Positions 2,421-17,811 of a stretch of DNA of 37,185 bases are shown here, piece after piece. The DNA comes from Pseudonocardia sp. SCN 73-27. GTDB taxonomy: Bacteria > Actinomycetota > Actinomycetes > Mycobacteriales > Pseudonocardiaceae. Within the stretch, counting starts at the first letter, position 1. Each line of letters opens with the position of its first letter. A program made the translations under genes and the position numbers. The stretch covers positions 5,462 through 42,646 of the forward strand of contig MEGH01000048.1 in the NCBI GenBank assembly GCA_001725415.1, written 5' to 3'. Below the pieces are notes generated by a model. The model saw nothing but the letters and a program-made list of their open reading frames with translations. It ran no database searches and had not been told where the DNA came from.

Positions 2421-2454
2421 GAACTTGACGTCGAGGTCAGTTCTTGAATAGCGT
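2421..2454 (+). promoter_or_regulatory. Operator/promoter 1: TGAC-N-TCGA-N-NTCA box with -35 and -10
   Basis: The near-palindrome TGACGTCGAGGTCA (2426-2439) is symmetric except for one base pair and is flanked by GAAC on the left and GTTC on the right. Its left arm forms the -35 box TTGACG (2425-2430). After an 18-base spacer comes TAGCGT (2449-2454), giving a start site near 2461 and a leader of about 28 bases to the ATG at 2489. The same -35, spacer length and -10 recur at 5578-5607. A repressor bound here would cover the -35 box. Confidence 0.7.
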
Positions 2455-2488
2455 CGACCGGTCACCCTGCGAGTGGAGGACGACGCCG

Positions 2489-4117
2489 ATGTCGATCTCG
2501 GATCCTGTGACACTGCCCGCGGTCTCCTACTGGCCGGCGACCACGGACGTCGATCTCGACGTCACGACGGTCGGCGCCCTGCTGCGCCGGGTCGCAGCCG
2601 AGGTGCCGGAACGGATCGGTCTCGTCGACGGGCTCGTCGACCCCGCGGCGCGCCGGCGCTGGACCTACGCCGAGATGCTCGACGCGGCCGAGGCCGTCGC
2701 CGCCGCACTGCTGGCGCGGTTCCGGCCGGGGGAGCGCGTCGCGGTCTGGGAGTCCAACCGCGCCGAGTGGGTGCTGCTGCAGATGGGAGCGGCGCTGGCG
2801 GGGATCGTCGTCGTCACGATCAATCCGCAGTACCGCACCGAGGAGCTCCGCTACGCGCTGCGCCAGTCCGGCAGCGTCGGGATCGTGCACGGCACCGAGC
2901 ACCGCGGGGTGTCGATGAGCGGCATCGTCCAGGGCGTCCGCGACGATCTGCCCGACCTGCGCGAGACCATCTGCTTCGCCGACTGGGACGCGTTCGTCGC
3001 GAGCGGGGACCGGTCGACACCGCTGCCCGACGTGTCGCCCGACGACCCCAACCTGATCATCTACACCTCCGGGACGACCGGCTTCGCCAAGGGCGCGCTG
3101 CTGCACAACCTCGGCGTCGTCAACGCCTCCCGGCTCTCCGCCGAACGCGCGGGCTTCCGCGACGGCGACGCCTGGATCAACCCGATCCCGTTGTTCCACA
3201 CCGGTGGCGGGGTGCTCGCGAGCATCGGGACGCTGGCCCGGCGCGGCGTGCACGTCGTCGTCCCGGTGTTCGACCCGGCGCTCGTCCTGGAGCTGATGGA
3301 GACCGAGCGCGGCGCCCTGATCCTGACGGTGCCGACGATCCTGCTCGGACTGCTCGACCACCCCGACCGGCCCCGACGCGACGTCTCGGCGTTGCGGACG
3401 GTCATGTGCGGCGGGGCGAAGGTGCCCGCGGATCTCGTGCGCCGCACCAAGTCCACGTGGGACTGCGACTTCTCGATCCTGTTCGGCCAGGCCGAGATGC
3501 ACGGGGTGCTCACCCAGACGTTCCCCACCGACTCCGACGCCGACCAGGCCGAGACGCTCGGGCAACCGATGCCGCACGTCGAGGTCAAGATCGCCGCCCC
3601 GTCCGGTGAGCCCGTCGAGGTGGGCGCCGAGGGCGAGATCTGTGCCCGCGGCTACCAGAACATGATGGGTTACTTCAACATGCCGGACGCGACGGGCGCG
3701 ACCATCGACGCCGACGGCTGGCTGCACAGCGGCGACATCGGGACCATGGACGAACGCGGCTACCTGCAGATCGCGGGCCGGCTCAAGGACCTCGTGATCC
3801 GCGGCGGGGAGAACATCCATCCGCTGGAGGTCGAGGAGCTGCTGCTCGAGCACGAGCAGGTGGCCGAGGTGGCCGTCATCGGCGTCCCGGACCCGAAGTG
3901 GGGTGAGCAGGTCGGCGCGGTCGTGCAGGCCGTCGACCCGGCGAACCCACCCGCCCCCGACGAGCTGTTCACGTTCTGTCGCAGCAGGGTCGCGCCGTTC
4001 AAGACCCCGAAGCTCTGGTACTTCGTCGACACCTTCCCGCGGACGCCGTCGGGGAAGATCCAGAAGTTCGTGCTCCGCGAGCGGGTCGCCTCGGGAGAGC
4101 TCCCGCCGGCCTCGTGA
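2489..4117 (+). CDS. Acyl-CoA synthetase (AMP-forming), FadD type 1
   Basis: 542 residues, normal length for the acyl-CoA synthetase/ligase family (carboxylate + ATP + CoA to acyl-CoA). Visible motifs: P-loop YTSGTTGFAKG, adenylate-binding FGQAEM (in place of the common YGxTE), LHSGDIG, the hinge RLKDLVIRGGENIHPLEVEE, and the C-terminal catalytic lysine region PSGKIQKF. ATG 2489 is chosen because GGAGG (2474-2478) lies just upstream and because the earlier in-frame codon at 2444 would fall inside the promoter. It is monocistronic, driven from operator 1, and ends in a palindrome. It probably activates the substrate or a chain-shortened intermediate of the cluster. The Gln-Ala in FGQAEM is slightly unusual; substrate cannot be read from sequence. 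Confidence 0.9.
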   Translation: MSISDPVTLPAVSYWPATTDVDLDVTTVGALLRRVAAEVPERIGLVDGLVDPAARRRWTYAEMLDAAEAVAAALLARFRPGERVAVWESNRAEWVLLQMGAALAGIVVVTINPQYRTEELRYALRQSGSVGIVHGTEHRGVSMSGIVQGVRDDLPDLRETICFADWDAFVASGDRSTPLPDVSPDDPNLIIYTSGTTGFAKGALLHNLGVVNASRLSAERAGFRDGDAWINPIPLFHTGGGVLASIGTLARRGVHVVVPVFDPALVLELMETERGALILTVPTILLGLLDHPDRPRRDVSALRTVMCGGAKVPADLVRRTKSTWDCDFSILFGQAEMHGVLTQTFPTDSDADQAETLGQPMPHVEVKIAAPSGEPVEVGAEGEICARGYQNMMGYFNMPDATGATIDADGWLHSGDIGTMDERGYLQIAGRLKDLVIRGGENIHPLEVEELLLEHEQVAEVAVIGVPDPKWGEQVGAVVQAVDPANPPAPDELFTFCRSRVAPFKTPKLWYFVDTFPRTPSGKIQKFVLRERVASGELPPAS

Positions 4118-4153
4118 GTGGCCTTGCCGGCTACAGCCAGTAACGCCACTCAC
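4114..4153. repeat. Palindromic element / terminator, copy 1
   Basis: GTGAGTGGC (4114-4122) and GCCACTCAC (4145-4153) form a perfect 9-bp stem around a 22-base loop. The left arm includes the TGA stop of the upstream synthetase. It lies between two convergent genes and could end transcription from both sides. The outer parts, GGCCTCGTGAGTGGC and TCACAGGCTC, are repeated at 8174-8198, where the centre is missing. The remaining convergent gap (4154-4255) holds only a short GAAGC/GCTTC inverted repeat near 4205. Confidence 0.55.
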
Positions 4154-4255
4154 AGGCTCGTCGACGACGTCGTCGTAGCGGTCGGCCACGTCTCGCTGTG
4201 AAGGAAGCAGTCCGCTTCATCCCTTTGAGGCGGCCCGGGGTAGGGCCATGAGGTC

Positions 4256-5182
4256 TCACAGGCTCTTTCGGTTGCCCCACATGTCGGCGTTCGGGGCGGC
4301 CTGGGCGACCAGGTCCGGGACGACCTCGCCCAGCTCCTCGGCGTCCCAGCGGGCGCCCTTGTCGGCCGACGGGCCGGCGCTCCAGCCCTCGGCCACGCTG
4401 ATCCGCCCGCCCCAGACGTTGAACACCCGCCCGGTGATGCCCGCGGACTGCGTCGAGCCGAGCCACACGACGAGCGGCGCGACGTTCTCGGGTGCCATCT
4501 CGTCGAAGTCGCTGCCGGAACCCGGGCCGGCGACGCCGTCGAGCACCGCGAGGTTCTCGGTCATCCGGGTGCGGGCGCCGGGCGCGATCGCGTTGACGGT
4601 GACGCCGTAGCGCTGCAGCTCGGTCGCGGCGATGACGGTCAGCGCGGCGATCCCGGCCTTGGCCGCGCCGTAGCCGGTCTGGCCGACGTTGCCGTACAGC
4701 CCCGACGGCGACGACGTGCTGATCACCCGGGCGTCGACGGGGTCGCCGGCCTTGGAGCGTTCCCGCCAGTGCCGCGACGCCGCGCGGGTGCAGGCGAAGA
4801 CGCTGCGCAGGTGCACGCGCAGGACCTCGTCCCACTCCTCGTCGACGGTGTTGACGAGCATCCGGTCGCGCAGGATGCCGGCGTTGTTGACCAGCACGTC
4901 CAGACCGCCGAACTCGCTCAGTGCGGTGGCGACCGCGGCGTCGGCGCCGTCGGTGGACGCGACGTCGCCGTAGGAGGCGACGGCCTCGCCGCCTGCCGCC
5001 CGGATCTCGGCGACGACCGCGTCGGCGAAATCGGGCGAGCCGCCGGTCCCGTCGACGTCGACCCCGCTGTCGTTGACGACCACCTGGGCGCCCTGGCGGG
5101 CGAACTCCAGGGCGTGCGCCCGTCCGATGCCGCGTCCGGCGCCGGTGACCAGGACGGTCCGGCCGGTGCAGAGGGCTCCCAT
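4256..5182 (-). CDS. Short-chain dehydrogenase, 17beta-HSD4/MFE-2-like
   Basis: 308 residues, longer than a basic SDR (about 250), with the size and motifs of the 3-hydroxyacyl-CoA dehydrogenase domain of multifunctional enzyme 2. The cofactor motif TGAGRGIG is at 14-21, NNAG at 99-102, the catalytic Tyr171-x3-Lys175 in GYGAAKAG, with a Ser-rich stretch (STSSPSG) just before. The insertion after the second strand (NDSGVDVDGTGGSPDFADAV) is typical of that group. It would oxidise a 3-hydroxyacyl-CoA with NAD. ATG 5182 has GGAGG six bases upstream. It follows the SnoaL-like gene by 12 bases and shares its promoter in operator 2. An alternative is a hydroxysteroid dehydrogenase; the acyl-CoA setting favours the first. 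Confidence 0.88.
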   Translation of the reverse strand: MGALCTGRTVLVTGAGRGIGRAHALEFARQGAQVVVNDSGVDVDGTGGSPDFADAVVAEIRAAGGEAVASYGDVASTDGADAAVATALSEFGGLDVLVNNAGILRDRMLVNTVDEEWDEVLRVHLRSVFACTRAASRHWRERSKAGDPVDARVISTSSPSGLYGNVGQTGYGAAKAGIAALTVIAATELQRYGVTVNAIAPGARTRMTENLAVLDGVAGPGSGSDFDEMAPENVAPLVVWLGSTQSAGITGRVFNVWGGRISVAEGWSAGPSADKGARWDAEELGEVVPDLVAQAAPNADMWGNRKSL

Positions 5183-5194
5183 GTGTGCCTCCAG

Positions 5195-5557
5195 TCAGCC
5201 CGGCGAGCCGTCGAGGTACTCGTCGAGCCGCGTGATCAGGCCGGCCTCGTCGACGCGCGCGACGACGCAGACCGCGTACTCCGCGGTGGTCGCGCCGGCG
5301 GCGTCGTGGAACCGGACGGTGTGCTGTTCGCAGAAGCCGTCGTCGGCAAGAAGGCGTCGCACGTCGCGGTACTCGAAGCCTCCGGTGCGCATCAGCTTGC
5401 CGGTGTAGCGGATGACCTGTTCGACGCCGCGTTCGGCGCCGTCGACGTTCTGCCAGAACACGGCGTCCTCGGCGACGACGGCGCGCATGCCGTCCCAGTC
5501 GCCCGCGGCGGCCGCCGCGAAGAAGGTGTCGGCGGCGCGGGCGGACGTCGTGGTCAC
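5195..5557 (-). CDS. SnoaL/NTF2-like protein
   Basis: 120 residues with an NTF2/SnoaL-type alpha+beta cone pattern: N-terminal helix (AADTFFAAAAAGDWDGMRAV), AEDAVFW strand, then beta strands ending in ITRLDEYLDG. Members include ketosteroid isomerases, polyketide cyclases and lipid-degradation accessory proteins; the substrate cannot be inferred. GTG 5557 is the only reasonable start; the next codons upstream are not starts. It lies only 7 bases after a minus-strand TAATGT -10 box, so its mRNA is probably leaderless. It is the first gene of a two-gene unit with the SDR at 4256-5182 and is divergent from the biotin-carrier operon. Confidence 0.75.
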   Translation of the reverse strand: MTTTSARAADTFFAAAAAGDWDGMRAVVAEDAVFWQNVDGAERGVEQVIRYTGKLMRTGGFEYRDVRRLLADDGFCEQHTVRFHDAAGATTAEYAVCVVARVDEAGLITRLDEYLDGSPG

Positions 5558-5564
5558 GGCGCGG

Positions 5565-5607
5565 ACATTAACCGAACTTGACGTCGAAATCAATTGATGC
5601 GTAGCGT
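5565..5607. promoter_or_regulatory. Operator 2: shared divergent promoter, one box for two operons
   Basis: TGACGTCGAAATCA (5579-5592) serves both strands. Plus strand: TTGACG (5578-5583), 18-base spacer, TAGCGT (5602-5607), placing the start site at about the GTG 5615 of the biotin-carrier gene. Minus strand: TTGATT (5593-5588), 17-base spacer, TAATGT (5570-5565), placing the start site at about the GTG 5557 of the SnoaL-like gene. The two -35 boxes are the two arms of the same near-palindrome, so one bound repressor would silence both operons, and both transcripts look leaderless. Confidence 0.68.
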
Positions 5608-5614
5608 GCCGCTC

Positions 5615-5854
5615 GTGGAGCCCCGTGAGGAGATCCGTGCCGAGCTGGCCGCCTCCGTCCTCGAGGTCAGCGCCACCGCCGGGGTGCGGGTCGCGGGCGG
5701 GCAGGCCATCGTGCTCCTCGAGTCGATGAAGATGGAGATTCCCGTGGTGAGCGAGACCGGGGGGACCGTCGTGTCGGTCGCCGTCGCCGTGGGCGACGTC
5801 GTCCAGAGCGGCGACCTGATCGCGGTCGTCGACGCCGAGGAGGCCCCGGAATGA
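5615..5854 (+). CDS. Stand-alone biotin carboxyl carrier protein (BCCP domain)
   Basis: 79 residues consisting only of a biotinyl/lipoyl domain. The biotin-attachment motif is ESMKMEI with Lys39 as the acceptor, preceded by the hinge GGQAIVLLE and followed by a second half-barrel ending in GDLIAVVDAEE. It carries CO2 between a biotin carboxylase and a carboxyltransferase. GTG 5615 is chosen although the frame is open from 5594: the earlier starts lie within or before the -10 box. The gene overlaps the next by ATGA. Its likely partner is the carboxyltransferase at 18564-19961 under the same operator; no biotin carboxylase is in the window. Confidence 0.85.
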   Translation: MEPREEIRAELAASVLEVSATAGVRVAGGQAIVLLESMKMEIPVVSETGGTVVSVAVAVGDVVQSGDLIAVVDAEEAPE

Positions 5855-6648
5855 CGTATCGAGCAATCCGCTACGAGTCGGCCGATCACGTCGGCTGGCT
5901 CACGTTGAACCGTCCCGAGGCGCTCAACGCCTACACGACCGTCATGTGCGACGAGATCGTCGACGTCCTCACCCGCTACCAGGCCGACGACGACATCCGC
6001 GTCCTCGTGATCACCGGTGAGGGCCGGGCGTTCTGCGCGGGTGGCGACGTCCGCAACACCGACGAGGTCGACGAGGCGGAGCGCCGTCAGCTCGGACACG
6101 CGATGGTGATGCGCGAGGGCATGCACCGCGTCGGACGGCTGCTGCACGGCCTCGACAAGCCCACGATCGCGATGGTCAACGGCGTCGCCGTCGCCGGCGG
6201 GCTGACGCTCGCGCTGCTGTGCGACCTGCGGGTGGCCGGCGCGTCCGCCCGGCTCGGCGACACGAGCGGACGCGTCGGCCTGCTTCCCGACGAGGGCGGC
6301 GCCTGGCTCTTCCCGCGCGCGATGGGCATGGAGGCGGCGCTGCGGATGACGTTGCTCGGCGAGATCTACGACGCCGAACGCGCCCGTGAGCTGGGCCTGG
6401 TCGGTGAGGTCGTGCCCGACGAGAAGCTGCGCGAGCACACCGCGGAGCTGGCGGCGGTCCTCGCCGCGAAGGCGCCGCTGGCCGTGCGCGTCGCGAAGAA
6501 GCTGATGCTGCGCGCCGCGGGGACGTCCTTCGACCACGCGCTGGGCGACGCCGAGTTCGCGGTCGACGTCGTCAACAACAGTGCCGACGTCGCCGAGGGG
6601 GTGGCGGCGTTCGTCGAGAAGCGGCCGCCGCGGTTCGAGGGCCGGTGA
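5851..6648 (+). CDS. Enoyl-CoA hydratase/isomerase family protein (PaaG-like)
   Basis: 265 residues, standard crotonase length. The oxyanion-hole elements are visible (GRAFCAGGDVRNT and NGVAVAGGLTLALLCDLRVA). The two glutamates of classical enoyl-CoA hydratase are absent: the first position, after the glycine pair in AGGLTLA, is Thr or Leu, and the second, in GDTSGRVGLLPDEGG, is Ser. Instead an Asp occurs in the PDxGG motif, as in PaaG-type isomerases and dienoyl-CoA isomerases. So double-bond isomerisation or ring chemistry is more likely than simple hydration. It overlaps BCCP by ATGA and MaoC by GTGA, showing translational coupling in the operon BCCP-crotonase-MaoC-kinase. Confidence 0.9.
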   Translation: MTYRAIRYESADHVGWLTLNRPEALNAYTTVMCDEIVDVLTRYQADDDIRVLVITGEGRAFCAGGDVRNTDEVDEAERRQLGHAMVMREGMHRVGRLLHGLDKPTIAMVNGVAVAGGLTLALLCDLRVAGASARLGDTSGRVGLLPDEGGAWLFPRAMGMEAALRMTLLGEIYDAERARELGLVGEVVPDEKLREHTAELAAVLAAKAPLAVRVAKKLMLRAAGTSFDHALGDAEFAVDVVNNSADVAEGVAAFVEKRPPRFEGR

Positions 6649-7088
6649 CCAGCGCGTTCATGACCTCCGACGAGCTCGTCGCCGCGTCGGGCCGCGACCT
6701 CGGCACGAGCGGGTGGGTCGACGTCGACGCCGCCCGCGCCGCCACGTTCGCGCAGGTCACAGGAGACGAGACCTGGGATGGCGCGCTGCCGGGCACCCTC
6801 GTGCTGTCGTACGCCGCGGCGTCGCTGGCCGAGGTCTTCGCCGTCCCGGGCGCGTCGATGGGTGTCAACCACGGCCTCGACGACGTGCGCTTCGGCGAGC
6901 CGGTGCCCGTCGGGACGATGGTGCGGCTGCGCGCCCGGATCGACGACGCCGCGCTCGGTGGGAAGGGTGCGGTGCAGGTCGTGTTGGGCGTCGTCGTCGA
7001 ACGTGCCGACACGGGTGAACCCGCCTGCACCGCAACGCTGCTGGCCCGCTTCCATTTCGAGTCGACGACACAGGGGGCGACCCGGTGA
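6645..7088 (+). CDS. MaoC-like hotdog protein with deleted catalytic loop
   Basis: 147 residues of the MaoC dehydratase/NodN type: FAQVTGDE, the central helix GTLVLSYAAASLAEVF and the strand GVNHGLDDVRFGEPVPVGTM are typical. In active R-specific hydratases TGD is followed by the Asp-x4-His dyad and about 15 residues of loop before the GxLxLS helix. Here TGDETWDGALPGTLVLS goes almost directly into the helix, so the catalytic His and most of the loop are missing. It may be inactive, a binding or structural subunit, or act on a different thioester. GTG 6645 overlaps the upstream TGA. An annotator may call it simply MaoC dehydratase; I doubt hydratase activity. Confidence 0.8.
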   Translation: MTSAFMTSDELVAASGRDLGTSGWVDVDAARAATFAQVTGDETWDGALPGTLVLSYAAASLAEVFAVPGASMGVNHGLDDVRFGEPVPVGTMVRLRARIDDAALGGKGAVQVVLGVVVERADTGEPACTATLLARFHFESTTQGATR

Positions 7089-8158
7089 ACCTGGAACCCG
7101 ACGAGGTCGCATCGGTCAGGCCGGGCGAAGAGCTCGACTGGGCCGCGCTCGAGCGCTACCTGCGTGAGCACGTCGAGAGGCTGGACGGGCCGTTCGCGGT
7201 CGAGCAGTTCCCCAACGGTTCGGCGAACCTCACCTACCGGGTGTCGTTCGGCGACCGGCGCCTCGTCGTGCGGCGGCCGCCGTTCGGGGAGATCGCCCCG
7301 GGCGCGCACGACATGCGCCGCGAGTACACGACGCTCGCCTCGCTGTGGCAGGAGTACCCGCGGGCGCCGCGCGCGCTGGCGTTCTGCGACGACCACGGCG
7401 TCGTCGGGTCGGACTTCCTCGTCGTCGAGTACCGGCCCGGGGTCGTGGTCTGGGGTGCGGTGCCGTCGACGATGACGCAGGTGCCCGACGCGGCCCGGCG
7501 GATCGGGTTCGCGGTCGTCGACGCCCTGGCCGACCTGCACGTCGTCGACCCGGCGGCGTGCGGGCTGGAGGGACTGGGCAAGCCGGAGGGCTTCCTGGAA
7601 CGGCAGGTCGGCGGGTGGCGGCGACGCTGGGAACGCGTGGGTGGCGACGCCGGCGCGCTGGCCGGGCGGATCGACGGCATCGGCGTGCACCTCGCGTCGA
7701 CGATGCCCGTGTCGTCGCGGGTGGCCGTGCTGCACAACGACTACAAGGTCGACAACTGCCAGTTCGCGCCCGACGACCCGGACACGGTGGTGTCGGTGTT
7801 CGACTGGGACATGGCGACGCTGGGCGACCCGATGGTCGACCTGGGCATCCTGCTCAACTATTGGCCCGACCCGTCGGACGCGTCCGACGCCCGTGCGATC
7901 ACCCCACCGGGACTCGACGAGCTCGGGCTGCCGAGCAGGGCGGAGGTCGTGGAGCGTTATGCGCAGCGCGCGGGGCGCGACGTCGGCGACAGTGCCTGGT
8001 ACGAGGCGTTCGCGGCGTGGAAGACGATCGTCGTGCTGCAGCAGCTGCACAGCCGCTGGCTGCGCGGGGAGAGCACGGATCCGCGGATGGCGCAGCGCGG
8101 CGAGCTGATCCCGCAGCTGGTGCGGCGGGCGGAGGCGATCCTGGCGGGGGCGAGCTGA
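7085..8158 (+). CDS. APH-fold kinase of the ACAD10/11 type
   Basis: 357 residues, full length for the aminoglycoside-phosphotransferase-like family. N-lobe nucleotide loop FPNGSANLTYRV (42-53) with VVRRPP (61-66); catalytic loop HNDYKVDN (217-224, Asp219 base, Asn224 metal ligand); metal-binding FDWD (239-242) in VFDWDMATLGDPMVDLG. This arrangement is that of the kinase domain fused to the dehydrogenase in ACAD10/ACAD11 and of LvaA, which phosphorylates the 4-hydroxyl of 4-hydroxyacyl-CoA. It is not an antibiotic-resistance gene by context. GTG 7085 overlaps the MaoC stop. Last gene of its operon; its probable partner is the ACAD11-like protein at 24249-25544 under the same operator. Confidence 0.87.
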   Translation: MNLEPDEVASVRPGEELDWAALERYLREHVERLDGPFAVEQFPNGSANLTYRVSFGDRRLVVRRPPFGEIAPGAHDMRREYTTLASLWQEYPRAPRALAFCDDHGVVGSDFLVVEYRPGVVVWGAVPSTMTQVPDAARRIGFAVVDALADLHVVDPAACGLEGLGKPEGFLERQVGGWRRRWERVGGDAGALAGRIDGIGVHLASTMPVSSRVAVLHNDYKVDNCQFAPDDPDTVVSVFDWDMATLGDPMVDLGILLNYWPDPSDASDARAITPPGLDELGLPSRAEVVERYAQRAGRDVGDSAWYEAFAAWKTIVVLQQLHSRWLRGESTDPRMAQRGELIPQLVRRAEAILAGAS

Positions 8159-8173
8159 GTCCGCGCAGCTCAG

Positions 8174-8198
8174 GCCTCGTGAGTGGCTCACAGGCTCT
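8174..8198. repeat. Palindromic element, shortened copy 2
   Basis: GGCCTCGTGAGTGGC continues directly into TCACAGGCTC. Compared with copy 1 (4108-4160), the same flanks are present but 27 internal bases are missing. The residual palindrome GTGAG-TGG-CTCAC (8179-8191) lies between the convergent kinase and TetR genes. The string CTCACAGGCTCT occurs a third time at 4252-4265, across the stop of the SDR gene. Confidence 0.45.
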
Positions 8199-8203
8199 GG
8201 GGA

Positions 8204-8866
8204 TCAGGGGGTCGGGATTCCCAACGCGTTGGCCCACAACAGGCTCAGCTGTGACGCGGCCTTGTCGAGCTCGAAGTCCTCGTCGCGCAGGCACCAGCGG
8301 TAGGCGAAGTTGCTGACCATGCCCGTGAGCGCGGTGGCGGCGTAGCGGGCGTCGATCGCGGCGGTGACCTCGCCTGCGGTCTGCATGTGCTCGATGGAGC
8401 GGACGATCCGGGCGACGGCCCGCTCGCTGGCCTGGCTGCGCAGCTCGGCGACCTCGTCGTTGAGCGTCGCGGCCTGTTCCCAGACGACCATGATGCCGCG
8501 GTTGTCGTGGTAGGCGGTGAGGTAGTCGGTGTTGGCGCGCAGGATGCGGGCGTAGGCCGAGCCGTCGGTGGCGCCCGCGCGCTCGCCGTCGCCGCTGACC
8601 CGCAGGTCCTCCTCGAGCTCCTCGATGAGCGCCAGGAAGATCTCGTCCTTCGACTTGAAGTACGTGTAGAAGGAGCCGTGCGCGACACCGGCCTCGTCGG
8701 AGATGTCGGTGATGCGGGCGTTGGTGAACCCGTCGCGGGCGAACACGACGCGGGCGGCGTCGAGGAGGGCCTGTCGGCTGCGCCGGCCGCGTGCGGTCGC
8801 GGGCACGGCGTGTCGGGCCGGGGTCGCGGCGACGTCGGTCGCCGCGCTCTCCGCGGTCTCGGTCAT
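8204..8866 (-). CDS. TetR-family regulator 1 (probable autoregulated cluster repressor)
   Basis: 220 residues. The N-terminal TetR DNA-binding domain covers about 28-82: RQALLDAARVVFARDGF, then ITDISDEAGVAHGSFYTYF and KSKDEIFLALIEE. The C-terminal region (about 90-220) is the ligand/dimer domain, ending TQ/SQLSLLWANALGIP. ATG 8866 has GGGAGAGG a few bases upstream; the longer frame from 9007 would include the operator and is rejected. It is divergent from the ketosynthase with operator 3 between them, the classical autoregulatory layout. It is strongly similar to TetR 2 (19958-20596) in both domains. The ligand is probably an acyl-CoA of the pathway (inference). Confidence 0.9.
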   Translation of the reverse strand: MTETAESAATDVAATPARHAVPATARGRRSRQALLDAARVVFARDGFTNARITDISDEAGVAHGSFYTYFKSKDEIFLALIEELEEDLRVSGDGERAGATDGSAYARILRANTDYLTAYHDNRGIMVVWEQAATLNDEVAELRSQASERAVARIVRSIEHMQTAGEVTAAIDARYAATALTGMVSNFAYRWCLRDEDFELDKAASQLSLLWANALGIPTP

Positions 8867-8981
8867 CGGGTCGCACCTCTCCCACGTGTTGCGGGCCGCG
8901 GCGGAGTGTGTGGCACCGCACGGGGTCGGCCGATCGTATCTCCGACGCCGCAGGGCGCCGGATGCACGACCGCTACGAATA

Positions 8982-9010
8982 TTGACTTCGACGTCGAGTT
9001 CATGCAAGGT
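8982..9010. promoter_or_regulatory. Operator 3 between TetR 1 and the ketosynthase
   Basis: TGACTTCGACGTCG (8983-8996) matches the cluster motif with one end base changed. It sits in a larger imperfect palindrome from TGA at 8983 to TCA at 9002 centred on GACGTC. Plus strand: TTGACT (8982-8987) with a weak CAAGGT (9005-9010) 17 bases on, leading to the ketosynthase at 9054. Minus strand: TTGCAT near 9006-9001 precedes a TAGCGG, serving the TetR gene. The -10 boxes are weaker than in operators 1 and 2. Confidence 0.58.
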
Positions 9011-9053
9011 CGAATTCGTCGGAAATCACGAGGTCGTGTCGGCGGAGGCATGC

Positions 9054-10274: not shown

Positions 10275-10290
10275 CCGGCGCAGCAGTGCT

Positions 10291-10320: not shown

Positions 10321-10366
10321 GCTGTTGTGTGGGCGCGAACGGTGTGACCCCGTGCACAAGTCGGAC

Positions 10367-10396
10367 TTGACGTCGACTTCAACATCTGCTCGAATC
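10367..10396 (+). promoter_or_regulatory. Operator 4 upstream of the ABC importer operon
   Basis: TGACGTCGACTTCA (10368-10381) matches the motif, and TTGACG (10367-10372) is again the -35 box. The -10 is weak: TCGAAT at 10390-10395 after 17 bases. This leaves a leader of about 85 bases before the receptor gene at 10485, longer than for the other promoters of the cluster. Confidence 0.55.
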
Positions 10397-10484
10397 CCTC
10401 CAGCGCGAACCGCATCGACGCCCCAGTCGTGACATTCGACCGACCGGAATCGCATGCGGGACCCCTCGGACGAAGGAGTCTGCA

Positions 10485-11666
10485 ATGCGTTCCACCCGTG
10501 TCGCCGCGGTCGGCGTCACCCTCACCGGAGCCCTGGTCCTCGCCGCCTGCGGCGGGGCCAGCGGCAGCTCGGCCGCGAGCGGCGACTGCGTCGTGAAGAT
10601 CGGTTCGGTGTTCAGCACCACCGGTGCGGCCGCCGCATTCGGGATCGACGGTCAGAACTCGATCGACATGGCCGTCAAGGACATCAACGCCAAGGGCTTC
10701 ACCGTGGCGGGCAAGCAGTGCACGTTCGAGCTGAAGTCGGCCGACATGCAGAGCAATCCCGACAACATGGCGCGCAACGCCCAGGACCTCATCACCGGCT
10801 TCGGTGCGCACTACCTGATCGGCGGCGACATGTCGCCCGCGATCCCGCCGATGGTCACCGCCGCCGAGCGCACCGGCAACGTGATGGCCCTGTCGGTCAC
10901 GACCTCGATGCAGAACTACGTCAAGCCCGACAAGCCGTTCTTCAAGCTCTCGGCGTCCGACGACAAGATGGTCAACAACGGCTACATTCCCGCCGTCACC
11001 AAGGCGCTGCCCGACATCAAGCGCATCGCGATGCTGATGAACAACGACGACACCGGCCGCGCGCTCGCCGATTCCTACGTCCCCGCGTTCGCCCAGAACG
11101 GCGTGGAGGTCACCCAGAAGATCTTCTTCGACCCGGCCTCGCAGGACTTCGCGGCCGTCGTCAACCAGATCCCCCGGGGCAGCGTCGACGGCATCTTCAT
11201 CGGCTACAACGGCGACGGCCGCGCCGCCGCGATCATGGACGCCGCGCTCGACGCGGGCCTGACCAAGAACTTCATCACGCGCGGCATCTCGGCCCTGCCC
11301 GGCCAGCAGCGCGCCGCGAAGATCGACAACTACGCGTGGCTCGTCCTCGGCGCCGACCCGGCCTTCCCCGGCACCGACAAGGTCAAGGACTTCATCGGCC
11401 GCTACGCCGCCGAGTACAAGATGGACCCGGCCAAGGTCACGTGGTTCCCGTTCACGCACTACGACTACATCGCGATGCTCGCCCAGGCGATGGAGAAGGC
11501 CGGCACGACCGACGACGTCGACAAGGTCGCGGCCGCCCTGCGCGGAGCGTCCTACGACGGCGTCGTCCAAGTCTCCTTCGACCCGTCCGGGGCCAACACC
11601 AGCCCGATGGGCGCCGGGATCCTCACGCCGACCGGCGGCAAGGTCGTCACGTTCGGCATCAGCTGA
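10485..11666 (+). CDS. Liv-type substrate-binding lipoprotein of an ABC importer
   Basis: 393 residues. The signal peptide ends in a lipobox, LAAC with Cys22 as the lipidated residue, followed by a Gly/Ser linker and the type I periplasmic binding fold (VVKIGSVFSTTGAAAAFGIDG start, hinge strands, C-terminal YDGVVQVSFDP). This is the receptor family used for branched-chain amino acids, amides and aromatic or short acids. ATG 10485 follows AAGGAG. It is first in a six-gene operon (receptor, synthetase, two permeases, two ATPases). The acyl-CoA synthetase as second gene argues that the ligand is a carboxylic acid rather than an amino acid. Confidence 0.9.
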   Translation: MRSTRVAAVGVTLTGALVLAACGGASGSSAASGDCVVKIGSVFSTTGAAAAFGIDGQNSIDMAVKDINAKGFTVAGKQCTFELKSADMQSNPDNMARNAQDLITGFGAHYLIGGDMSPAIPPMVTAAERTGNVMALSVTTSMQNYVKPDKPFFKLSASDDKMVNNGYIPAVTKALPDIKRIAMLMNNDDTGRALADSYVPAFAQNGVEVTQKIFFDPASQDFAAVVNQIPRGSVDGIFIGYNGDGRAAAIMDAALDAGLTKNFITRGISALPGQQRAAKIDNYAWLVLGADPAFPGTDKVKDFIGRYAAEYKMDPAKVTWFPFTHYDYIAMLAQAMEKAGTTDDVDKVAAALRGASYDGVVQVSFDPSGANTSPMGAGILTPTGGKVVTFGIS

Positions 11667-11705
11667 CCCGCTCTCACCAGCAAGAACAGCCCGGAGGAGC
11701 AGCAC

Positions 11706-13238
11706 ATGCAGTACTCGGTGGCCGACATGCTGGGCATGAGCGCCCGGTCCCGCCCCGACGCCCTGGCCGCGACGGTGCTCGCGACGCCGACGACGCCTGA
11801 ACGGTCGTGGACGTTCGCGCAGGTCTGGCAGCGCGTCGCCGGGCTCGCGGCCGCGATCGCGGACACACCGGAAGGCCGCAACGGCCGGATGGTCGCGACG
11901 CTGCTGCCCAACGGGCTCGACGCGCTGCTGATCTACCCGGCCGCCATGGTGGCCGGGGTGGCGTCGGTGCCGGTCAACACCCGGCTGGCGCTGCCCGAGA
12001 TCGCGCACATCCTGTCGGACTCCGGCGCCACCGTCGTGGTCGCGGCGGGGCCGCTGCTGGACACGGCCCGCGAGGTCGCCGCGCTCCTCGACCACGACGT
12101 CACGGTGCTCGACCTCGACACCGTGCCCGACGATGCCCCGCTGCCCGACCCCACCGGTGACCCGGCGGTCGGGCAGCGCGTGGGGGCGGTGTTCTACACC
12201 TCCGGCACGACCGGGCTGCCCAAGGGCGCCACGATGACCAACGACACCTGGCTCATCAACTGCTTCCGGTGGGGCTGGCAGCTGCGGCTGGGGCCCGACG
12301 ACGACATGCTCGTCCCGGGCCCGCTGTTCCACATGTCCTACTGCAGCTTCGCGCTGTGCTGCTGGATGATCGGCGGCCGGGTGCGGATCATGCCCACCTT
12401 CGACGCCGCCGTCGCCTGCGACGAGTTCGCCGAGCGCTCCACCGCGGCGTTCCTCGTCCCGTCGATGACGACGATGATCTCCCAGGAGTGGGAGCGCCGC
12501 GGCCGCACACCGCTGCCGGCGATGAAGCGGATGATGACGGCCGGTGCCGCCGTGTCGCCGGTGCTGTTGAAGCAGGCCTACGACATCTTCCCGAACGTCG
12601 AGATCTCCGAGACCTACGGCTGGACCGAGGGCGGGTTCGCGACGTTCGAGCTCAAGTCGCCCGACACCGTCCTCGACGGCACCGTCGGCCACCCCACGGT
12701 CGGCTGCGAGATCCTCGTCGTCGACGAGGACGACCAGCTCTGCGCGCCCGGGCAGCGGGGCGAGATCCTGCTGCGGACGCTCGCCTGCTCGTCGGGCTAC
12801 CTCAACCTCCCCGAGGCGACCGCCGCGTCGTGGACCGGTGACCTCATCCGCTCCGGCGACATCGGGATCATGGACGCCGACGGCCGGCTGCGGATCGTCG
12901 ACCGCAAGAACGGCATGATCATCACCGGCGGCGAGAACGTCTACGCCGCCGAAGTGGAGCAGGTCGTCGCCCAGCACCCCGCGGTGCTCGAGACGGTCGT
13001 GCTCGGCAAGCCCCACGAGAAGTGGGGCGAGCAGATCGTCGCGGTCGTCGTCGCGAGGCCGGGGGAGACCGTCGAGCAGGACGACCTGCGCGCCTTCTGC
13101 CGCGACCACCTCGCCGACTACAAGATCCCCCGCGCAGTCGTCGTGTGGCCGGAGGCGCTGCCGCGCAACTCGATGGGCAAGCTGCAGCGCTTCGTCGTCG
13201 AGAAGTCGGTGCGCGACGCCGCGGTACCGGCGGGCTGA
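11706..13238 (+). CDS. Acyl-CoA synthetase (AMP-forming), FadD type 2, within importer operon
   Basis: 510 residues. Motifs: YTSGTTGLPKG (P-loop), YGWTEG (adenylate contact), RSGDIG, RIVDRKNGMIITGGENVYA (hinge and A8) and NSMGKLQRF (catalytic lysine). It differs clearly from the first synthetase and so probably acts on another substrate. ATG 11706 follows GGAGGAG. It lies 39 bases after the receptor gene and 3 bases before the first permease, so it is transcribed with the transporter. This suggests activation of the acid directly on entry (inference). The specificity pocket cannot be read from sequence alone. Confidence 0.92.
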   Translation: MQYSVADMLGMSARSRPDALAATVLATPTTPERSWTFAQVWQRVAGLAAAIADTPEGRNGRMVATLLPNGLDALLIYPAAMVAGVASVPVNTRLALPEIAHILSDSGATVVVAAGPLLDTAREVAALLDHDVTVLDLDTVPDDAPLPDPTGDPAVGQRVGAVFYTSGTTGLPKGATMTNDTWLINCFRWGWQLRLGPDDDMLVPGPLFHMSYCSFALCCWMIGGRVRIMPTFDAAVACDEFAERSTAAFLVPSMTTMISQEWERRGRTPLPAMKRMMTAGAAVSPVLLKQAYDIFPNVEISETYGWTEGGFATFELKSPDTVLDGTVGHPTVGCEILVVDEDDQLCAPGQRGEILLRTLACSSGYLNLPEATAASWTGDLIRSGDIGIMDADGRLRIVDRKNGMIITGGENVYAAEVEQVVAQHPAVLETVVLGKPHEKWGEQIVAVVVARPGETVEQDDLRAFCRDHLADYKIPRAVVVWPEALPRNSMGKLQRFVVEKSVRDAAVPAG

Positions 13239-13241
13239 CCC

Positions 13242-14105
13242 GTGGACGCACTCGTCACGACGATCCTGCTCGGCATCATGCAGGGCGGGCTCTACACGCT
13301 CGTCGGCCTCGGGGTGACGCTCACCTTCGGCGTCACCCACATCCTCAACTTCGCCCACGGCGAGTTCATCACCGTCGGCGCCTACGCGTTCGTGCTGTTC
13401 GCGGGTGCCGTCGGAGCCGGGCTCGCGCTCCCGTTGGCGCTGCTCATCGCGGGTGGGATCGCGGCACTGCTCTACGTCGTCGGCTTCCGCCGGACGATCG
13501 GCAACCACCTGCAGGGCCTCGCGTTCTCGCTCGGCCTGCTGCTGTTCGTCGAAGCTTTCATGATGCGGACGTTCACGGCGACGCCACGCAGCGGCCCGCG
13601 CATCGAGGGCACCGTCTCCCTGATCGGTCAGGAGCAGATGCCCGTCGGGCGGCTCATCGTCATCGGAGTGACGATCGTGGTGGTCGTCGTGACGGCATTC
13701 GCCATGCGCCGCACGTGGATCGGCCTCGCCCTGCGGGCCTGCGGCGACGACGAGTTCGCCGCCTCGACCGTCGGCCTGCCGGCCAAGCGGGTCGGGCTGT
13801 ACGCGTTCGTCGTCGCCGGGGTGCTCGCCGCCGTCGCGGGCGTCTGCATCGCACTCGTCGTCCCGATCACCCCGCTGACCGGGCTGGCGTTCCTGCTCAA
13901 GGGCTTCGTCGTCGCCATCATCGGCGGGCTCGGCTCGATCGAGGGCACGTTCGTCGCCGCGATGATGCTCGGCCTGCTCGAGGCACTGGGCACGCGCTAC
14001 GTCGAGGCCGGACTGACCAACGCCTACGGCTTCGTCCTCATGATCGTCATCCTGCTGGTCGCACCGGCGGGGTTGTTCAACCGCAGGCAGGTGCGGGCCG
14101 GATGA
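13242..14105 (+). CDS. livH: Liv-type ABC permease, LivH family
   Basis: 287 residues with about eight hydrophobic segments. Family signatures include GLVTLTFGVTHILNFAHGEF-like sequence near the start (LGVTLTFGVTHILNFAHG) and the cytoplasmic coupling region LRACGDDEFAASTVGLPAKR followed by GLGSIEGTFVAA. It forms half of the membrane channel with the LivM-type protein. GTG 13242 is the only start that keeps the first helix; it lies 3 bases after the synthetase stop. It overlaps livM by ATGA. The symbol indicates family only; the transported compound is probably a carboxylic acid. Confidence 0.9.
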   Translation: MDALVTTILLGIMQGGLYTLVGLGVTLTFGVTHILNFAHGEFITVGAYAFVLFAGAVGAGLALPLALLIAGGIAALLYVVGFRRTIGNHLQGLAFSLGLLLFVEAFMMRTFTATPRSGPRIEGTVSLIGQEQMPVGRLIVIGVTIVVVVVTAFAMRRTWIGLALRACGDDEFAASTVGLPAKRVGLYAFVVAGVLAAVAGVCIALVVPITPLTGLAFLLKGFVVAIIGGLGSIEGTFVAAMMLGLLEALGTRYVEAGLTNAYGFVLMIVILLVAPAGLFNRRQVRAG

Positions 14106-15139
14106 GCGCCGGACGGAGTGCGATGTCGGCGCGGCGCAGGCGGCAGGGCGCGGGCGTCCTCGCGGTCGGGGTCGTGCTGCTGGCGCTGGCGTTCGTGGTG
14201 CCCGAGAACCGGGTGCTGCTGCTCAACGCGTTCCTCGCCTACGGCGCGCTCGTCGTCGGCCTGGATCTGTTGGTCGGCGACCTGCGGATGATGCCCGCGG
14301 GGCACGCCGCGTTCTTCGGCGCCGGCGGCTACGCGACAGTTCTGCTCTACCAGAAGGCCGGACTGCCGCTGCCCGTCGCAGGCGTGCTGGCCGTGCTCAT
14401 CGTGGGTCTGCTCGCCGCGCTGATCGGGCTGCCCGCCGTCGGCCGCTCGTCCGGGTTCTCGTTCGCGATCATCACGTTCGCGTTCGGTGAGCTGCTGATC
14501 CAGCTGATCGCCAACGTCCCCGGGTTCTTCGGCGGCTCGTCGGGCCTCACGATCGACTGGGGCGTCGGCTCGGACATGCCGTTCGACTTCTCGGTGTACC
14601 GGTACTTCACGCTCTGGCTCGTCGTGGTGCTGGTCGTCGTGATGGGCGTCGTGGTCCTGGTCCGCAACTCCCACCTCGGGCTGCGGATGAAGGCGGTGCG
14701 CGCCGACGAGAACGGCACCCGCGGCCTCGGCTTCAACCCCACGACCTACAAGGGGATCGCGTTCGTCCTCGCCTCGATGCTGGCCGGGCTCGTCGGCGTC
14801 TTCTGGGCGCCGATGAACGGGTTCATCAGCCCCGACACGCTCGGGGTCAACCAGTCCATCCTGCTGCTGGGCATGCTGATCATCGGCGGCGTCGGCCGGA
14901 TCACCGGCGCGCTCGTCGGCGTCGCCCTGCTCGTCACGCTGCCCGCACTGTTCGACATGGACCCGGTGCTGCGGACCGTGCTCGTCGGTGGGCTGCTGGC
15001 GATCGTCGCGCTGCTGCAGCCCTCGGGCATCGTCGGCGGTCTCGCCTCGCTGTGGACGCGGCTGCGCAGGCCCAGGACCCCACCACCCGCCGACGGGGCC
15101 GTCGACGCCACCCTCGAACCGGCGGGGGCGGGCCGATGA
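14102..15139 (+). CDS. livM: Liv-type ABC permease, LivM family
   Basis: 345 residues, about ten hydrophobic segments. Family landmarks: LVGDLRMMPAGHAAFFGAGGYA near the start, the coupling helix region LRMKAVRADENGTRGLGFNP, and the C-terminal GVGRITGALVGVALL. The frame is open much further upstream, but ATG 14102 is chosen because it precedes the first helix and overlaps the livH stop by ATGA. A short charged N-terminus (ARRRRQG) precedes helix 1. In turn it overlaps the ATPase gene at 15136 by ATGA. The C-terminal 25 residues are Pro/Ala-rich and non-conserved. Confidence 0.9.
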   Translation: MSAGRSAMSARRRRQGAGVLAVGVVLLALAFVVPENRVLLLNAFLAYGALVVGLDLLVGDLRMMPAGHAAFFGAGGYATVLLYQKAGLPLPVAGVLAVLIVGLLAALIGLPAVGRSSGFSFAIITFAFGELLIQLIANVPGFFGGSSGLTIDWGVGSDMPFDFSVYRYFTLWLVVVLVVVMGVVVLVRNSHLGLRMKAVRADENGTRGLGFNPTTYKGIAFVLASMLAGLVGVFWAPMNGFISPDTLGVNQSILLLGMLIIGGVGRITGALVGVALLVTLPALFDMDPVLRTVLVGGLLAIVALLQPSGIVGGLASLWTRLRRPRTPPPADGAVDATLEPAGAGR

Positions 15140-15882
15140 CCGCAGCGAGCAACGGAGCCGTGGTCTCGAACCCGGCCGTGCCCGCCGCCGGCGCCCTCCT
15201 CGACGTCGACGACGTGTCCTGCGTCCTCGGCGGCGTCCGGGCGCTGTCCGAGGTGACGATGCACATCGCGCCCGGCGAGCTCGTCGGCATCATCGGGCCC
15301 AACGGCGCGGGCAAGACCACGCTGTTCAACGTCGTCACCGGGTTCGTGCCCGCCACGACCGGCGAGGTCCGCTGGGACGGTGCCCCGCTGCGCGGCGGCA
15401 AGGCCCATCGCGTCGCGCGCAGCGGGCTCGTGCGCACCTTCCAGAACGTCGGCGGCTTCACCGGGCTCACCGTCGCGGAGAACCTCGAACTGGCGACGCG
15501 CGGGCGCGATCCCGACGCCATCGACCGCGTCGAGGCGCTGCTGCACCTCGCCGACGTGCGCGACAAGGCGGTCGAGGATTGCAGCCTGGCGACGCGCAAG
15601 CTCGTCGGCATCGCGATGGCACTCGTGCGTACGCCCAAGCTGCTGCTGCTCGACGAGCCCCTCGCCGGCCTCGACGACACCGACCGCGACCGGGTGACGT
15701 CGCTGATCGGGCAGGTCCACGACTCGGGAGTGACCGTGTGCATGGTGGAGCACGACATCGGCCGGACGCTCCGACTCGCCGACCGGATGGTCGTCCTGGA
15801 CGCCGGACGGCTCGTCGCCGTGGGTACACCGGCGGAGCTCGCACGTGACGACGTGCTCGCCCGGAACTACCTGAGCTCGTGA
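15136..15882 (+). CDS. livG: Liv-type ABC ATPase, LivG family, with altered signature motif
   Basis: 248 residues. Walker A GPNGAGKT (54-61), Q-loop TFQN (101-104), Walker B LLLLDEP (169-175), D-loop AGLD and switch His in VEHD are all present. The ABC signature is not: where LSYGQQ or LSGGQ is expected the sequence reads CSLATRKL (149-156), lacking both Gly and Gln. In an ABC dimer this would weaken the site completed by this subunit, leaving the LivF site as the main one. ATG 15136 overlaps the livM stop; the upstream in-frame start at 15052 is inside livM. N-terminal 20 residues are an extra tail. Confidence 0.88.
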   Translation: MTAASNGAVVSNPAVPAAGALLDVDDVSCVLGGVRALSEVTMHIAPGELVGIIGPNGAGKTTLFNVVTGFVPATTGEVRWDGAPLRGGKAHRVARSGLVRTFQNVGGFTGLTVAENLELATRGRDPDAIDRVEALLHLADVRDKAVEDCSLATRKLVGIAMALVRTPKLLLLDEPLAGLDDTDRDRVTSLIGQVHDSGVTVCMVEHDIGRTLRLADRMVVLDAGRLVAVGTPAELARDDVLARNYLSS

Positions 15883-16568
15883 CCGCGCACCTGGAGGTCC
15901 GAGACCTGGCCGTCCGCTACGGGCAGGCGCTCGCCGTCCGCGGCGTGTCGTTCGCGATCGAGCGGGGCGAGACGCTGGCCGTGGTCGGGGCGAACGGCGG
16001 CGGGAAGAGCTCGCTGGGCAAGGCGGTCGCCCGGCTCGTCGGCTCCACCGGCGACGTGCTGCTCGACGGCGCTCCCGTGCCGAGGACGGCCGTGGCCGCG
16101 GTGGGTGCCGGCGTCGTGTACGTGCCCGAGGGCCGGATGGTGTTCACCCAGCTCTCGGTGGCCGACAACCTGCGGGCGGGCGCGTTCGCCGTGCGCCGCA
16201 AGCACGACTGGGAGGCCAGGCGGGCCACCCTCTACGAGCGGCTGCCGCGGCTCGCGGAACGCGCCGCGGTCCGGGGCGGGCTGCTCTCCGGCGGCGAGCA
16301 GCAGCTGCTCGCGATCGGCCGCGCTCTCATGGCGTTCCCGTCCGTGCTCGTGCTCGACGAGCCGTCGCTGGGGCTCTCGCCGTCGGCGGTCGTGACGGTC
16401 ACCGACTTCCTGCGCGAGATCCAGCAGGAGTACGACATGACGATCCTGCTGCTGGAGCAGAACGCCGCCTTCGCGGCGAAGCTCGCGACGCGTGCGCTGG
16501 TGCTGGAGCTGGGCGTCGTGCGCGACGAGGTGGAGGCGGCGACGCTCGCGCCCGTCGAGGGGCCGTGA
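15879..16568 (+). CDS. livF: Liv-type ABC ATPase, LivF family
   Basis: 229 residues, standard length. Walker A GANGGGKS (37-44), Q-loop region YVPEGRMVF (81-89, typical of LivF), canonical signature LSGGE (136-140), Walker B VLVLDEP and the switch region LLLEQN, where Gln replaces the usual His as in many LivF proteins. It forms the ATPase dimer with the LivG-type protein. GTG 15879 overlaps the previous stop. It is the last gene of the importer operon, ending 8 bases before the convergent racemase gene, with no room for a separate terminator. Confidence 0.9.
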   Translation: MTAHLEVRDLAVRYGQALAVRGVSFAIERGETLAVVGANGGGKSSLGKAVARLVGSTGDVLLDGAPVPRTAVAAVGAGVVYVPEGRMVFTQLSVADNLRAGAFAVRRKHDWEARRATLYERLPRLAERAAVRGGLLSGGEQQLLAIGRALMAFPSVLVLDEPSLGLSPSAVVTVTDFLREIQQEYDMTILLLEQNAAFAAKLATRALVLELGVVRDEVEAATLAPVEGP

Positions 16569-16576
16569 CGGTCCAC

Positions 16577-17713
16577 TCAGCCGATGGCGCCGCTCGCCCG
16601 CAGTGCGGCCACCTCGCCCGCGTCGACACCCAGCTCGGCCAGCAGCGCGTCGCCGTGCTCGCCGGGCCGCGGGCGCGGCGGCGGCAACGTCGCGGGCGTC
16701 GCGTCGAATCGCGGCGCGGGGGCGGGCTGCACCAGCCCGTCACGGGTGACGATCGTGCCTCGGGCGGAAAGGTGGGGGTCGGATGCCGCCTCGTCGCGGC
16801 TGAGCACCGGTGCGAAACAGGTCTCGGCGCCGGCGAACACGGCGCACCACTCGTCCCGGGTGCGGGAGCGGAAGATCGCGTCGACCCGCCTGCGCATTGC
16901 GGGCCACGACGCCTGGTCCATCTGCGCCGGGAGGTCGGTGTCGGCGAGGCCGAGGCGATCGAGGAACACCGCGTAGAACTGCGGCTCCAGCGCGCCGACG
17001 GCGACGTGCCGGTCGTCGGCGGTGGCGTAGACGCCGTAGAAGTGGGCGCCGCCGTCGACCATGTTGGTGCCACGCGGCCCCCATTCGCTGCGCGCGAGGT
17101 AGGGCGCCATCAGCAGGGCGGCGCCGTCGACCATCGCGGCGTCGACGACCTGGCCCCGACCGGTCGTGCGCGCGGAGACGATGCCGCACACCAGTCCGAA
17201 CGCGAGCAGCATCCCGCCCCCGCCGAAGTCGCCGACCAGGTTGAGCGGCAGCACGGGATCGCCGCCGCCCGCGGGCCCGATCGAGTCGAGGACCCCGGTC
17301 AGCGCGATGTAGTTGACGTCGTGACCGACGGTCGGGGCGAGCGGGCCGTCCTGGCCCCAGCCGGTCATCCGGCCGTAGACGAGCGCGGGGTTGCGGGCCA
17401 GGCAGGGTGCGGGCCCGACGCCGAGCCGTTCGGCGACGCCGGGCCGGTAGCCCTCCATGAGCGCGTCGGCGCCGGCGACGAGGTCCAGGACGATCGCGAC
17501 GCCGCGCGGGTCCTTGAGGTTCACCGCGATGCTGCGGCGGCCACGTTCGATGACCTCGCTGAGCTCGGTCGACTCGGCCACCTCGTGGTGGCGGGTGACG
17601 CGGTCGACGCGGATCACGTCGGCGCCCATGTCGGCCAGCATCATGCCCGCGAACGGCGCCGGGCCGAGCCCGGCGAGCTCGACCACGCGCACGCCGCTGA
17701 GGGGTCCCGTCAT
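16577..17713 (-). CDS. mcr: Alpha-methylacyl-CoA racemase (CaiB/BaiF fold)
   Basis: 378 residues. It matches the racemase branch of the CaiB/BaiF family, not a CoA-transferase: the three catalytic residues of the Mycobacterium tuberculosis enzyme MCR (His126, Asp156, Glu241) correspond to His131 in TVGHDVNYIALTG, Asp162 in LNLVGDFGGGG and Glu243 in ALEPQFYAVF, with close spacing. It inverts the alpha-methyl centre of (2R)-acyl-CoA so that S-specific dehydrogenases can act, as in sterol side-chain, pristanate and other branched-chain degradation. ATG 17713 has no Shine-Dalgarno and lies 7 bases after a -10-like TTGACT, so the transcript is probably leaderless. Divergent from the long operon at 17812. 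Confidence 0.9.
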   Translation of the reverse strand: MTGPLSGVRVVELAGLGPAPFAGMMLADMGADVIRVDRVTRHHEVAESTELSEVIERGRRSIAVNLKDPRGVAIVLDLVAGADALMEGYRPGVAERLGVGPAPCLARNPALVYGRMTGWGQDGPLAPTVGHDVNYIALTGVLDSIGPAGGGDPVLPLNLVGDFGGGGMLLAFGLVCGIVSARTTGRGQVVDAAMVDGAALLMAPYLARSEWGPRGTNMVDGGAHFYGVYATADDRHVAVGALEPQFYAVFLDRLGLADTDLPAQMDQASWPAMRRRVDAIFRSRTRDEWCAVFAGAETCFAPVLSRDEAASDPHLSARGTIVTRDGLVQPAPAPRFDATPATLPPPRPRPGEHGDALLAELGVDAGEVAALRASGAIG

Positions 17714-17720
17714 GCCGGCA

Positions 17721-17776
17721 AGTCAAACCGGACCCGACGTCGACGTCAAGTTTGTTCGAAGTTGACGTCAGAATCA
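17721..17776. promoter_or_regulatory. Operator 5: two boxes between racemase and the nine-gene operon
   Basis: Box 5a, read on the minus strand, is TGACGTCGACGTCG (17748-17735) with TTGACG as -35 and TTGACT (17726-17721) as a weak -10 after 17 bases, for the racemase gene. Box 5b on the plus strand is TGACGTCAGAATCA (17763-17776), a poorer match, with TTGACG (17762-17767) as -35 and TACGGT (17785-17790) as -10 after 17 bases, for the gene at 17812. The two boxes are 14 bases apart, so two repressor dimers could bind side by side. Confidence 0.65.
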
Positions 17777-17811
17777 GATAATCGTACGGTGAGGATCGAG
17801 GGGGGCCGACG

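Follow-up and report, generated by a model that had tools for sequence, protein, structure and literature searches.

A candidate TetR-type operator at the promoters of a 25-gene acid-degradation cluster in Pseudonocardia

How might 25 genes spread over both strands be switched on together? The question is raised by a stretch of 37,185 nucleotides (nt), the window analysed here, from contig MEGH01000048.1 of the draft genome of Pseudonocardia sp. SCN 73-27 (GCA_001725415.1; 6.95 Mb, 72% GC). The annotated cluster covers about 24 kb, from 2489 to 26669, and contains 25 genes, where a preliminary description of this DNA had counted about 23. It includes genes for two TetR-family proteins, termed here TetR-A and TetR-B. 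Six near-palindromic sites, each resembling the 16-base-pair (bp) palindrome TTGACGTCGACGTCAA, lie in five gaps before inferred transcription units. We propose, from the sequence, that these sites are operators of TetR-A, TetR-B or both, which would repress the cluster by covering the -35 box; we give this reading a probability of roughly 0.85.

Six sites and the promoters they overlap

All six sites were found at the coordinates given in the preliminary description. Their rendering there as six copies of TGAC-N-TCGA-NN-TCA is loose, because three of them carry mismatches: the formula is exact at 2426, 5579 and 10368, one position is missed at 8983 and at 17735, and two at 17763. The intergenic position of every site holds once the start of the SnoaL gene is set at the GTG at 5557; a simple open reading frame (ORF) caller had stretched this gene across the site at 5578. 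Site S1 (TTGACGTCGAGGTCAG, 2425-2440) precedes an acyl-coenzyme A (CoA) ligase gene, S2 (TTGACGTCGAAATCAA) occupies 5578-5593, and S3, between the TetR-A and ketosynthase genes, consists of two overlapping 16-mers 6 bp apart (8982-9003, the first 16-mer at 8982-8997). S4 (TTGACGTCGACTTCAA, 10367-10382) stands before a transporter operon. S5 (17734-17749), which reads CCGACGTCGACGTCAA here and TCGACGTCGACGTCAA in three other species, precedes the CaiB gene on the minus strand, and S6 (TTGACGTCAGAATCAG, 17762-17777), the weakest copy, a nine-gene operon.

The arms of several sites coincide with promoter elements. TTGACG-N18-TAGCGT occurs exactly at 2425 and 5578 on the plus strand, as had been claimed. 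At S1 the left arm thus forms the -35 box TTGACG, followed after 18 nt by the -10 box TAGCGT at 2449-2454; two species have this spacing and the other two one of 17, with TAGCGT kept. In Rhodococcus ruber, TAGCGT is described as a putative -10 box (PMC8228715). On the minus strand, S2 gives TTGATT-N17-TAATGT from 5593. Since each arm of S2 is a -35 box, one for either strand, this single site appears to serve two divergent promoters. A GTG lies 7 nt from each -10 box at S2, which suggests two leaderless transcripts. The minus-strand -10 box is conserved as TANNGT at equal spacing in all four species, with a GTG 6-7 nt further on. The promoter at S6 reads TTGACG-N17-TACGGT from 17762, and conserved -10 boxes lie 17-18 bp from the -35 box at S1, S2 and S6.

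Conservation and specificity of the sites

The cluster is also present in P. sulfidoxydans, Pseudonocardia sp. N23 and P. dioxanivorans CB1190, whose proteins are 97, 90 and 87% identical to TetR-A and 92, 91 and 83% identical to TetR-B. Across five sites aligned in the four species, 78 of 80 columns are identical, against 329 of 547 in the surroundings. P. sulfidoxydans additionally carries, between the ligase and SDR genes, an intact GMC oxidoreductase gene (Pfam; L086:7612-9156), and an extra site, CCGACATCGACGTCAA, ends 50 bases before the ATG of this gene, on the other side. Matches to the GMC oxidoreductase stretch amount to 23 bp in the window (identical, in the gap 4118-4255), 59 bp in N23 and 45 bp in CB1190, and the ligase-SDR gap of these three genomes contains no operator site. 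We read this as the joint loss of the gene and its putative site from the three.

Among all 65,536 perfect 16-bp palindromes, TTGACGTCGACGTCAA gives the best fit to the five promoter gaps, with 71 of 80 positions matched (mean 43.2, standard deviation 3.1), and none of the other 1,679 half-sites of the same composition equals its score. The eight gaps without a proposed site match at 11 of 16 positions at most. When two mismatches are allowed in the formula, the window yields 46 matches against 10 expected, a count that we think is inflated by Asp-Val-Asp codons; the ranking over the five gaps is the fairer test of chance.

The observation in the preliminary description that no good copy exists outside the cluster was tested at the genome level with the core TTGACNTCGANNTCA. 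Without mismatches this core occurs four times, three times in the cluster and once inside the gene for a 2Fe-2S protein. With one mismatch, 60 strand matches were obtained (6 for a reversed control), 10 of them in the cluster and the others at 48 distinct places, of which at least three are intergenic. We inspected 46 of the 48 (all but those on contigs C77 and C99), and 41 fell within called genes. Of the five that did not, L116 falls in an open frame with the look of coding sequence, L007, L012 and L115 are intergenic, and L021 may be either. Over 62 genomes of the genus, the exact core was matched 27 times and its reversed control 3 times; 13 of the matches come from the four cluster-bearing genomes, namely three per cluster plus the copy in the 2Fe-2S gene of the window genome. 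The exact core is thus specific and nearly restricted to the cluster, whereas a loose palindrome matrix is unspecific.

The intergenic one-mismatch site at L012 adjoins a MerR gene. This and the look-alikes at L214 and L216 were considered as further members of the regulon and rejected, as their sites adjoin genes with MerR domains. In two relatives the look-alike beside MerR-type genes reads TTGACRCCGACGTCAA.

TetR-A, TetR-B and rival explanations

Both proposed regulators contain a TetR_N domain (53.2 bits for TetR-A and 49.9 for TetR-B; Pfam cut-off 24), and palindromes lie near a regulator's own gene and at the target promoters, an arrangement by which TetR repressors are recognised, here at the level of sequence. 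TetR-A is encoded at 8204-8866 on the minus strand and TetR-B at 19958-20596 on the plus strand. The two are 50% identical, and the pair was found in 4 of the 62 genus genomes searched. Their recognition helices, AGVAHGSFYTYF and AGVAHGTFYTYF, differ only by Ser/Thr, plus one change of Val to Ala in TetR-A of CB1190, and for this reason both regulators may share the sites.

Neither protein corresponds to a named regulator. By sequence, the closest solved relative of TetR-A is a FadR of TetR type (3whb, E 2.5e-12), which for TetR-B (E 1.8e-10) ranks behind 5gpa, 5gp9 and NalC; this FadR is from Bacillus and has an acyl-CoA ligand. The operator of TetR-type FadR differs from that of the cluster. 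Identity with FadR was rejected on the NCBIfam model (59.5 and 54.1 bits, cut-off 200), as was identity with KstR (24.7 and 22.7 bits, cut-off 280). Neither protein scores above the cut-off of any NCBIfam TetR model, and both are filed as TetR family without a named regulator.

KstR and KstR2 are TetR repressors that govern large catabolic regulons in actinobacteria and in this resemble the proposed regulators, but their motifs, given as TNNAACGTGTTNNA and AAGCAAGNNCTTGCTT (PMC8228715), do not fit the gaps: the best matches miss 2-4 of 10 positions for KstR and 5-7 of 14 for KstR2, in line with the dissimilarity noted in the preliminary description. A parallel in layout is BkaR of mycobacteria (Rv2506 / MSMEG_4718), described as a local TetR repressor with a 16-bp palindrome core, its own gene being surrounded by acyl-CoA and carboxylase genes (PMC3920632). 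However, its operator GTTA-N-T-N4-A-N-TAAC is mismatched at 3-4 of 10 positions in each of the gaps. MftR, an actinobacterial TetR protein reported to be released by long-chain acyl-CoAs (PMC8728441), likewise has a different operator, T-N2-GGCA-N5-TGCC-N2-A, with 3-4 of 10 positions wrong in the gaps, and the Lcin1 motif showed no fit in the five gaps. The known operators tested (KstR, KstR2, BkaR, MftR and Lcin1) were accordingly rejected. In QacR, a pair of dimers is described on one long operator (PMC4418694); S3 and many homologous loci have an overlapped 22-bp layout, on which such a pair might sit.

That layout emerged from a wider set of 80 homologous tetR loci, the best 80 of 426. Out of 1,024 x 13 palindrome words tried upstream of these tetR genes, the commonest were TTGAC-N12-GTCAA (17), TCGAC-N0-GTCGA (11), TTGAC-N6-GTCAA (10) and TGACA-N10-TGTCA (10), the next reaching 9; once the six loci that belong to this cluster are removed, the four counts are 17, 8, 10 and 10. 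Assembled, these words give a 22-bp form of two overlapping 16-mers, TTGAC-N-TCGACGTCGA-N-GTCAA, to which S3 is close. A 16-mer scoring at least 9.5 was present upstream at 27 of 58 loci whose helix reads [A/S]HG and at 1 of 18 with other helix types (four loci with an unreadable helix, one of them with such a site, were left out). Without the six cluster loci the counts are 24 of 52 and 1 of 18; because the loci are related, the corresponding Fisher p (0.0016) should be taken as no more than a guide. The TTGAC half-site occurs in 21 of these 52 His-Gly loci, the next best of 60 permuted half-sites in 3.

Two Nocardioides loci extend the pattern. A metagenome-assembled genome (MAG; L138) shares the transporter genes of the cluster and has sites before its tetR gene and its substrate-binding protein gene, and N. 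litoris (L134), which shares genes with the cluster, has a site before a substrate-binding protein gene (Pfam). Together with the near-restricted exact core, the invariance over four species, the loss of a site with its gene and the half-site at homologous tetR genes, they support the earlier proposal of one local regulon whose promoters share a TetR-type operator. Separately, TTGACGGCCGTGTCAA lies between genes at position 14292 of L155, a locus from a Frankiales MAG that carries transporter and dehydrogenase genes, and possibly marks another regulon of the family.

If the sites are operators, a TetR dimer would bind the palindrome TTGACGTCGACGTCAA, and as the arms double as -35 boxes, the bound dimer would keep RNA polymerase off. 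After uptake of the substrate and its coupling to CoA, a CoA ester of the pathway would probably bind the repressor, which would then leave the operators, so that the genes for uptake, activation and oxidation would be switched on together. Binding, repression rather than activation, and a CoA-ester ligand are what we infer from the sequence.

Several observations weigh against this proposal. The copies at S5, at S6 and at the additional location in P. sulfidoxydans are imperfect, and in the promoter scan S3, S4 and S5 had no TANNNT -10 box at 16-19 bp. Fourteen exact cores are scattered over the 58 other genomes, and of the seven inspected, four lie in genes and three outside called genes. 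With one mismatch, the four genomes give 35, 38, 25 and 39 matches to TTGACNNCGNNGTCAA, where the control gives 17, 11, 9 and 7; 4 of the 35 in the window genome are in the cluster, and of 16 loci inspected, 13 were in genes and 3 were not. The operator also has look-alikes in MerR-type promoters. Finally, 28 of the 52 His-Gly loci, including eight of nine from Frankia, lack a site at a score of 9.5, and the association of helix and site ignores shared ancestry.

Could the sites be something else? Chance matches built from GACGTCGA codon words in a genome of 72% GC would explain why 41 of the 46 one-mismatch places inspected outside the cluster fall in called genes, and the 46 window matches at two mismatches as well. 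The cluster sites, by contrast, are intergenic and nearly invariant in four species, and the exact core has otherwise a single, coding match; the exact-core count in 62 genomes and the palindrome ranking speak strongly against a chance origin, which we reject as barely credible. The conserved recurrence of TTGACG, spaced 17-18 bp from TAGCGT or TACGGT, would suit a promoter element read by a dedicated sigma factor. Against it, the palindrome extends past the -35 hexamer with both arms nearly invariant, it recurs before tetR genes elsewhere in the overlapping 22-bp form, and the -10 boxes follow the ordinary TANNNT pattern, so that we consider such an element very improbable. Slightly less so, though still improbable, is convergence on the cluster of another regulator encoded elsewhere. 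The genome holds many other TetR candidates besides a third homologue (L092, G000:C18, 7774-8403), 41% identical to TetR-A and 44% to TetR-B, and MerR promoters can look alike. However, the third homologue has the helix AVG and a different palindrome, TGAACTCGRATTCA (TGAACTCGGATTCA-like), before its gene in three of the four species, with a variant in N23, and no genomes other than the four that encode close relatives of TetR-A and TetR-B have three exact sites grouped together.

Which of the two proteins would use the sites is a narrower matter. Only one may do so, the other having drifted to another role or acting through heterodimers; as a sub-case of the proposed TetR operators, this shares part of their odds, and we hold it to be conceivable but short of an even chance. 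TetR-A has S3 before its own gene and TetR-B lies within an operon, and the two may stem from different lineages: in a tree of 40 rows, TetR-B groups with the Nocardioides L138 TetR (95/88) and TetR-A with TetRs of Amycolatopsis and Prauserella (100/99), long rows such as L138 and L134 being flagged as of unsure place. On the other side stand the near-identity of the helices and the retention of both tetR-A and tetR-B in all four genomes. From the separate grouping, two modules whose TetRs shared one operator code may have merged. We put forward, with less confidence than doubt, a broader view in which the proteins belong to a large unnamed actinobacterial TetR subfamily in which the His-Gly of the helix dictates a shared TTGAC..GTCAA half-site code; the cluster would be a merger of two modules, with TetRs from different lineages now both controlling all promoters, and a single operator could respond to two CoA esters.

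TetR regulons of this sort are known, and the present one is another case of a familiar type of switch. In the open-access literature, the site strings led to no paper on a TetR operator by title and abstract among the matches listed, a search for a Pseudonocardia TetR regulon returned none, and by title none of those listed for TetR operators in Pseudonocardia concerned this operator; no CB1190 transcriptome paper appeared by title among the matches listed. Within these searches, the operator, the regulon, S2 as a divergent pair of -35 boxes and the link of helix and operator look new. The proposal provides a testable regulator-operator pair for the cluster, and the tie between a helix motif and an operator half-site, which spans several actinobacterial families, could allow operators to be predicted for many uncharacterised TetR regulators.

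Gene content and possible substrates

The cluster opens on the plus strand with AMP-binding acyl-CoA ligase 1 (2489-4117; Pfam), followed on the minus strand by an SDR oxidoreductase (4256-5182; NF005861 above cut-off) and the SnoaL-like protein (5195-5557, scanned as 5195-5560). Plus-strand genes then encode a biotin/lipoyl carrier protein (5615-5854; NF004547, 98.2 bits, cut-off 75), enoyl-CoA hydratase family protein 1 (5851-6648), a MaoC-like protein (6645-7088; 26.8 bits, slightly under the Pfam cut-off of 27) and an APH-family kinase like the kinase half of ACAD11 (7085-8158). Beyond tetR-A, the plus strand carries a beta-ketoacyl synthase (9054-10274), a transporter substrate-binding protein (10485-11666), AMP-binding acyl-CoA ligase 2 (11706-13238), permeases of LivH type (13242-14105) and LivM type (14123-15139), and ATPases of LivG type (15160-15882) and LivF type (15879-16568). 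The CoA-transferase family III protein of CaiB type (16577-17713) is on the minus strand. The remaining genes, all on the plus strand, encode enoyl-CoA hydratase family protein 2 (17812-18567) and a carboxyl transferase (18564-19961) upstream of tetR-B and, downstream of it, acyl-CoA dehydrogenase 1 (20593-21858), SDR oxidoreductase 2 (21855-22664), a ChsH2-like OB-fold protein (22682-23092), the partner of a thiolase-fold protein with SCP2-thiolases among its nearest solved relatives (23089-24237), and acyl-CoA dehydrogenases 2 (24249-25544) and 3 (25557-26669).

Two of these products hint at the substrate. The best solved relative of acyl-CoA dehydrogenase 2 is ACAD11, in its dehydrogenase half (E 5.6e-73). 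The APH-family kinase is nearest to 9o56, named an aminoglycoside phosphotransferase (E 5.6e-79), and matches the kinase half of ACAD11 at E 7.2e-33. After phosphorylation by ACAD10 or ACAD11, the phosphate of a 4-hydroxyacyl-CoA is eliminated. The pairing of a kinase with an ACAD11-like dehydrogenase suggests that the cluster handles 4-hydroxyacyl-CoA esters, which ACAD10 and ACAD11 are described as phosphorylating (PMC12440821, PMC11342911), and our guess is that it serves acids passing through 4-hydroxyacyl-CoA. One of its carriers, Pseudonocardia sp. N23, has been described as a 1,4-dioxane degrader (PMC5668550).

A gene for tRNA-Gly (gcc) at 26678-26751 lies directly 3' of the last cluster gene and possibly marks the cluster boundary. 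At the other end, the minus-strand ORFs 756-1481 and 1163-2365 overlap and could be a single gene with a frame change; ORF 1163-2365 begins with a MarR/ArsR-like helix-turn-helix.

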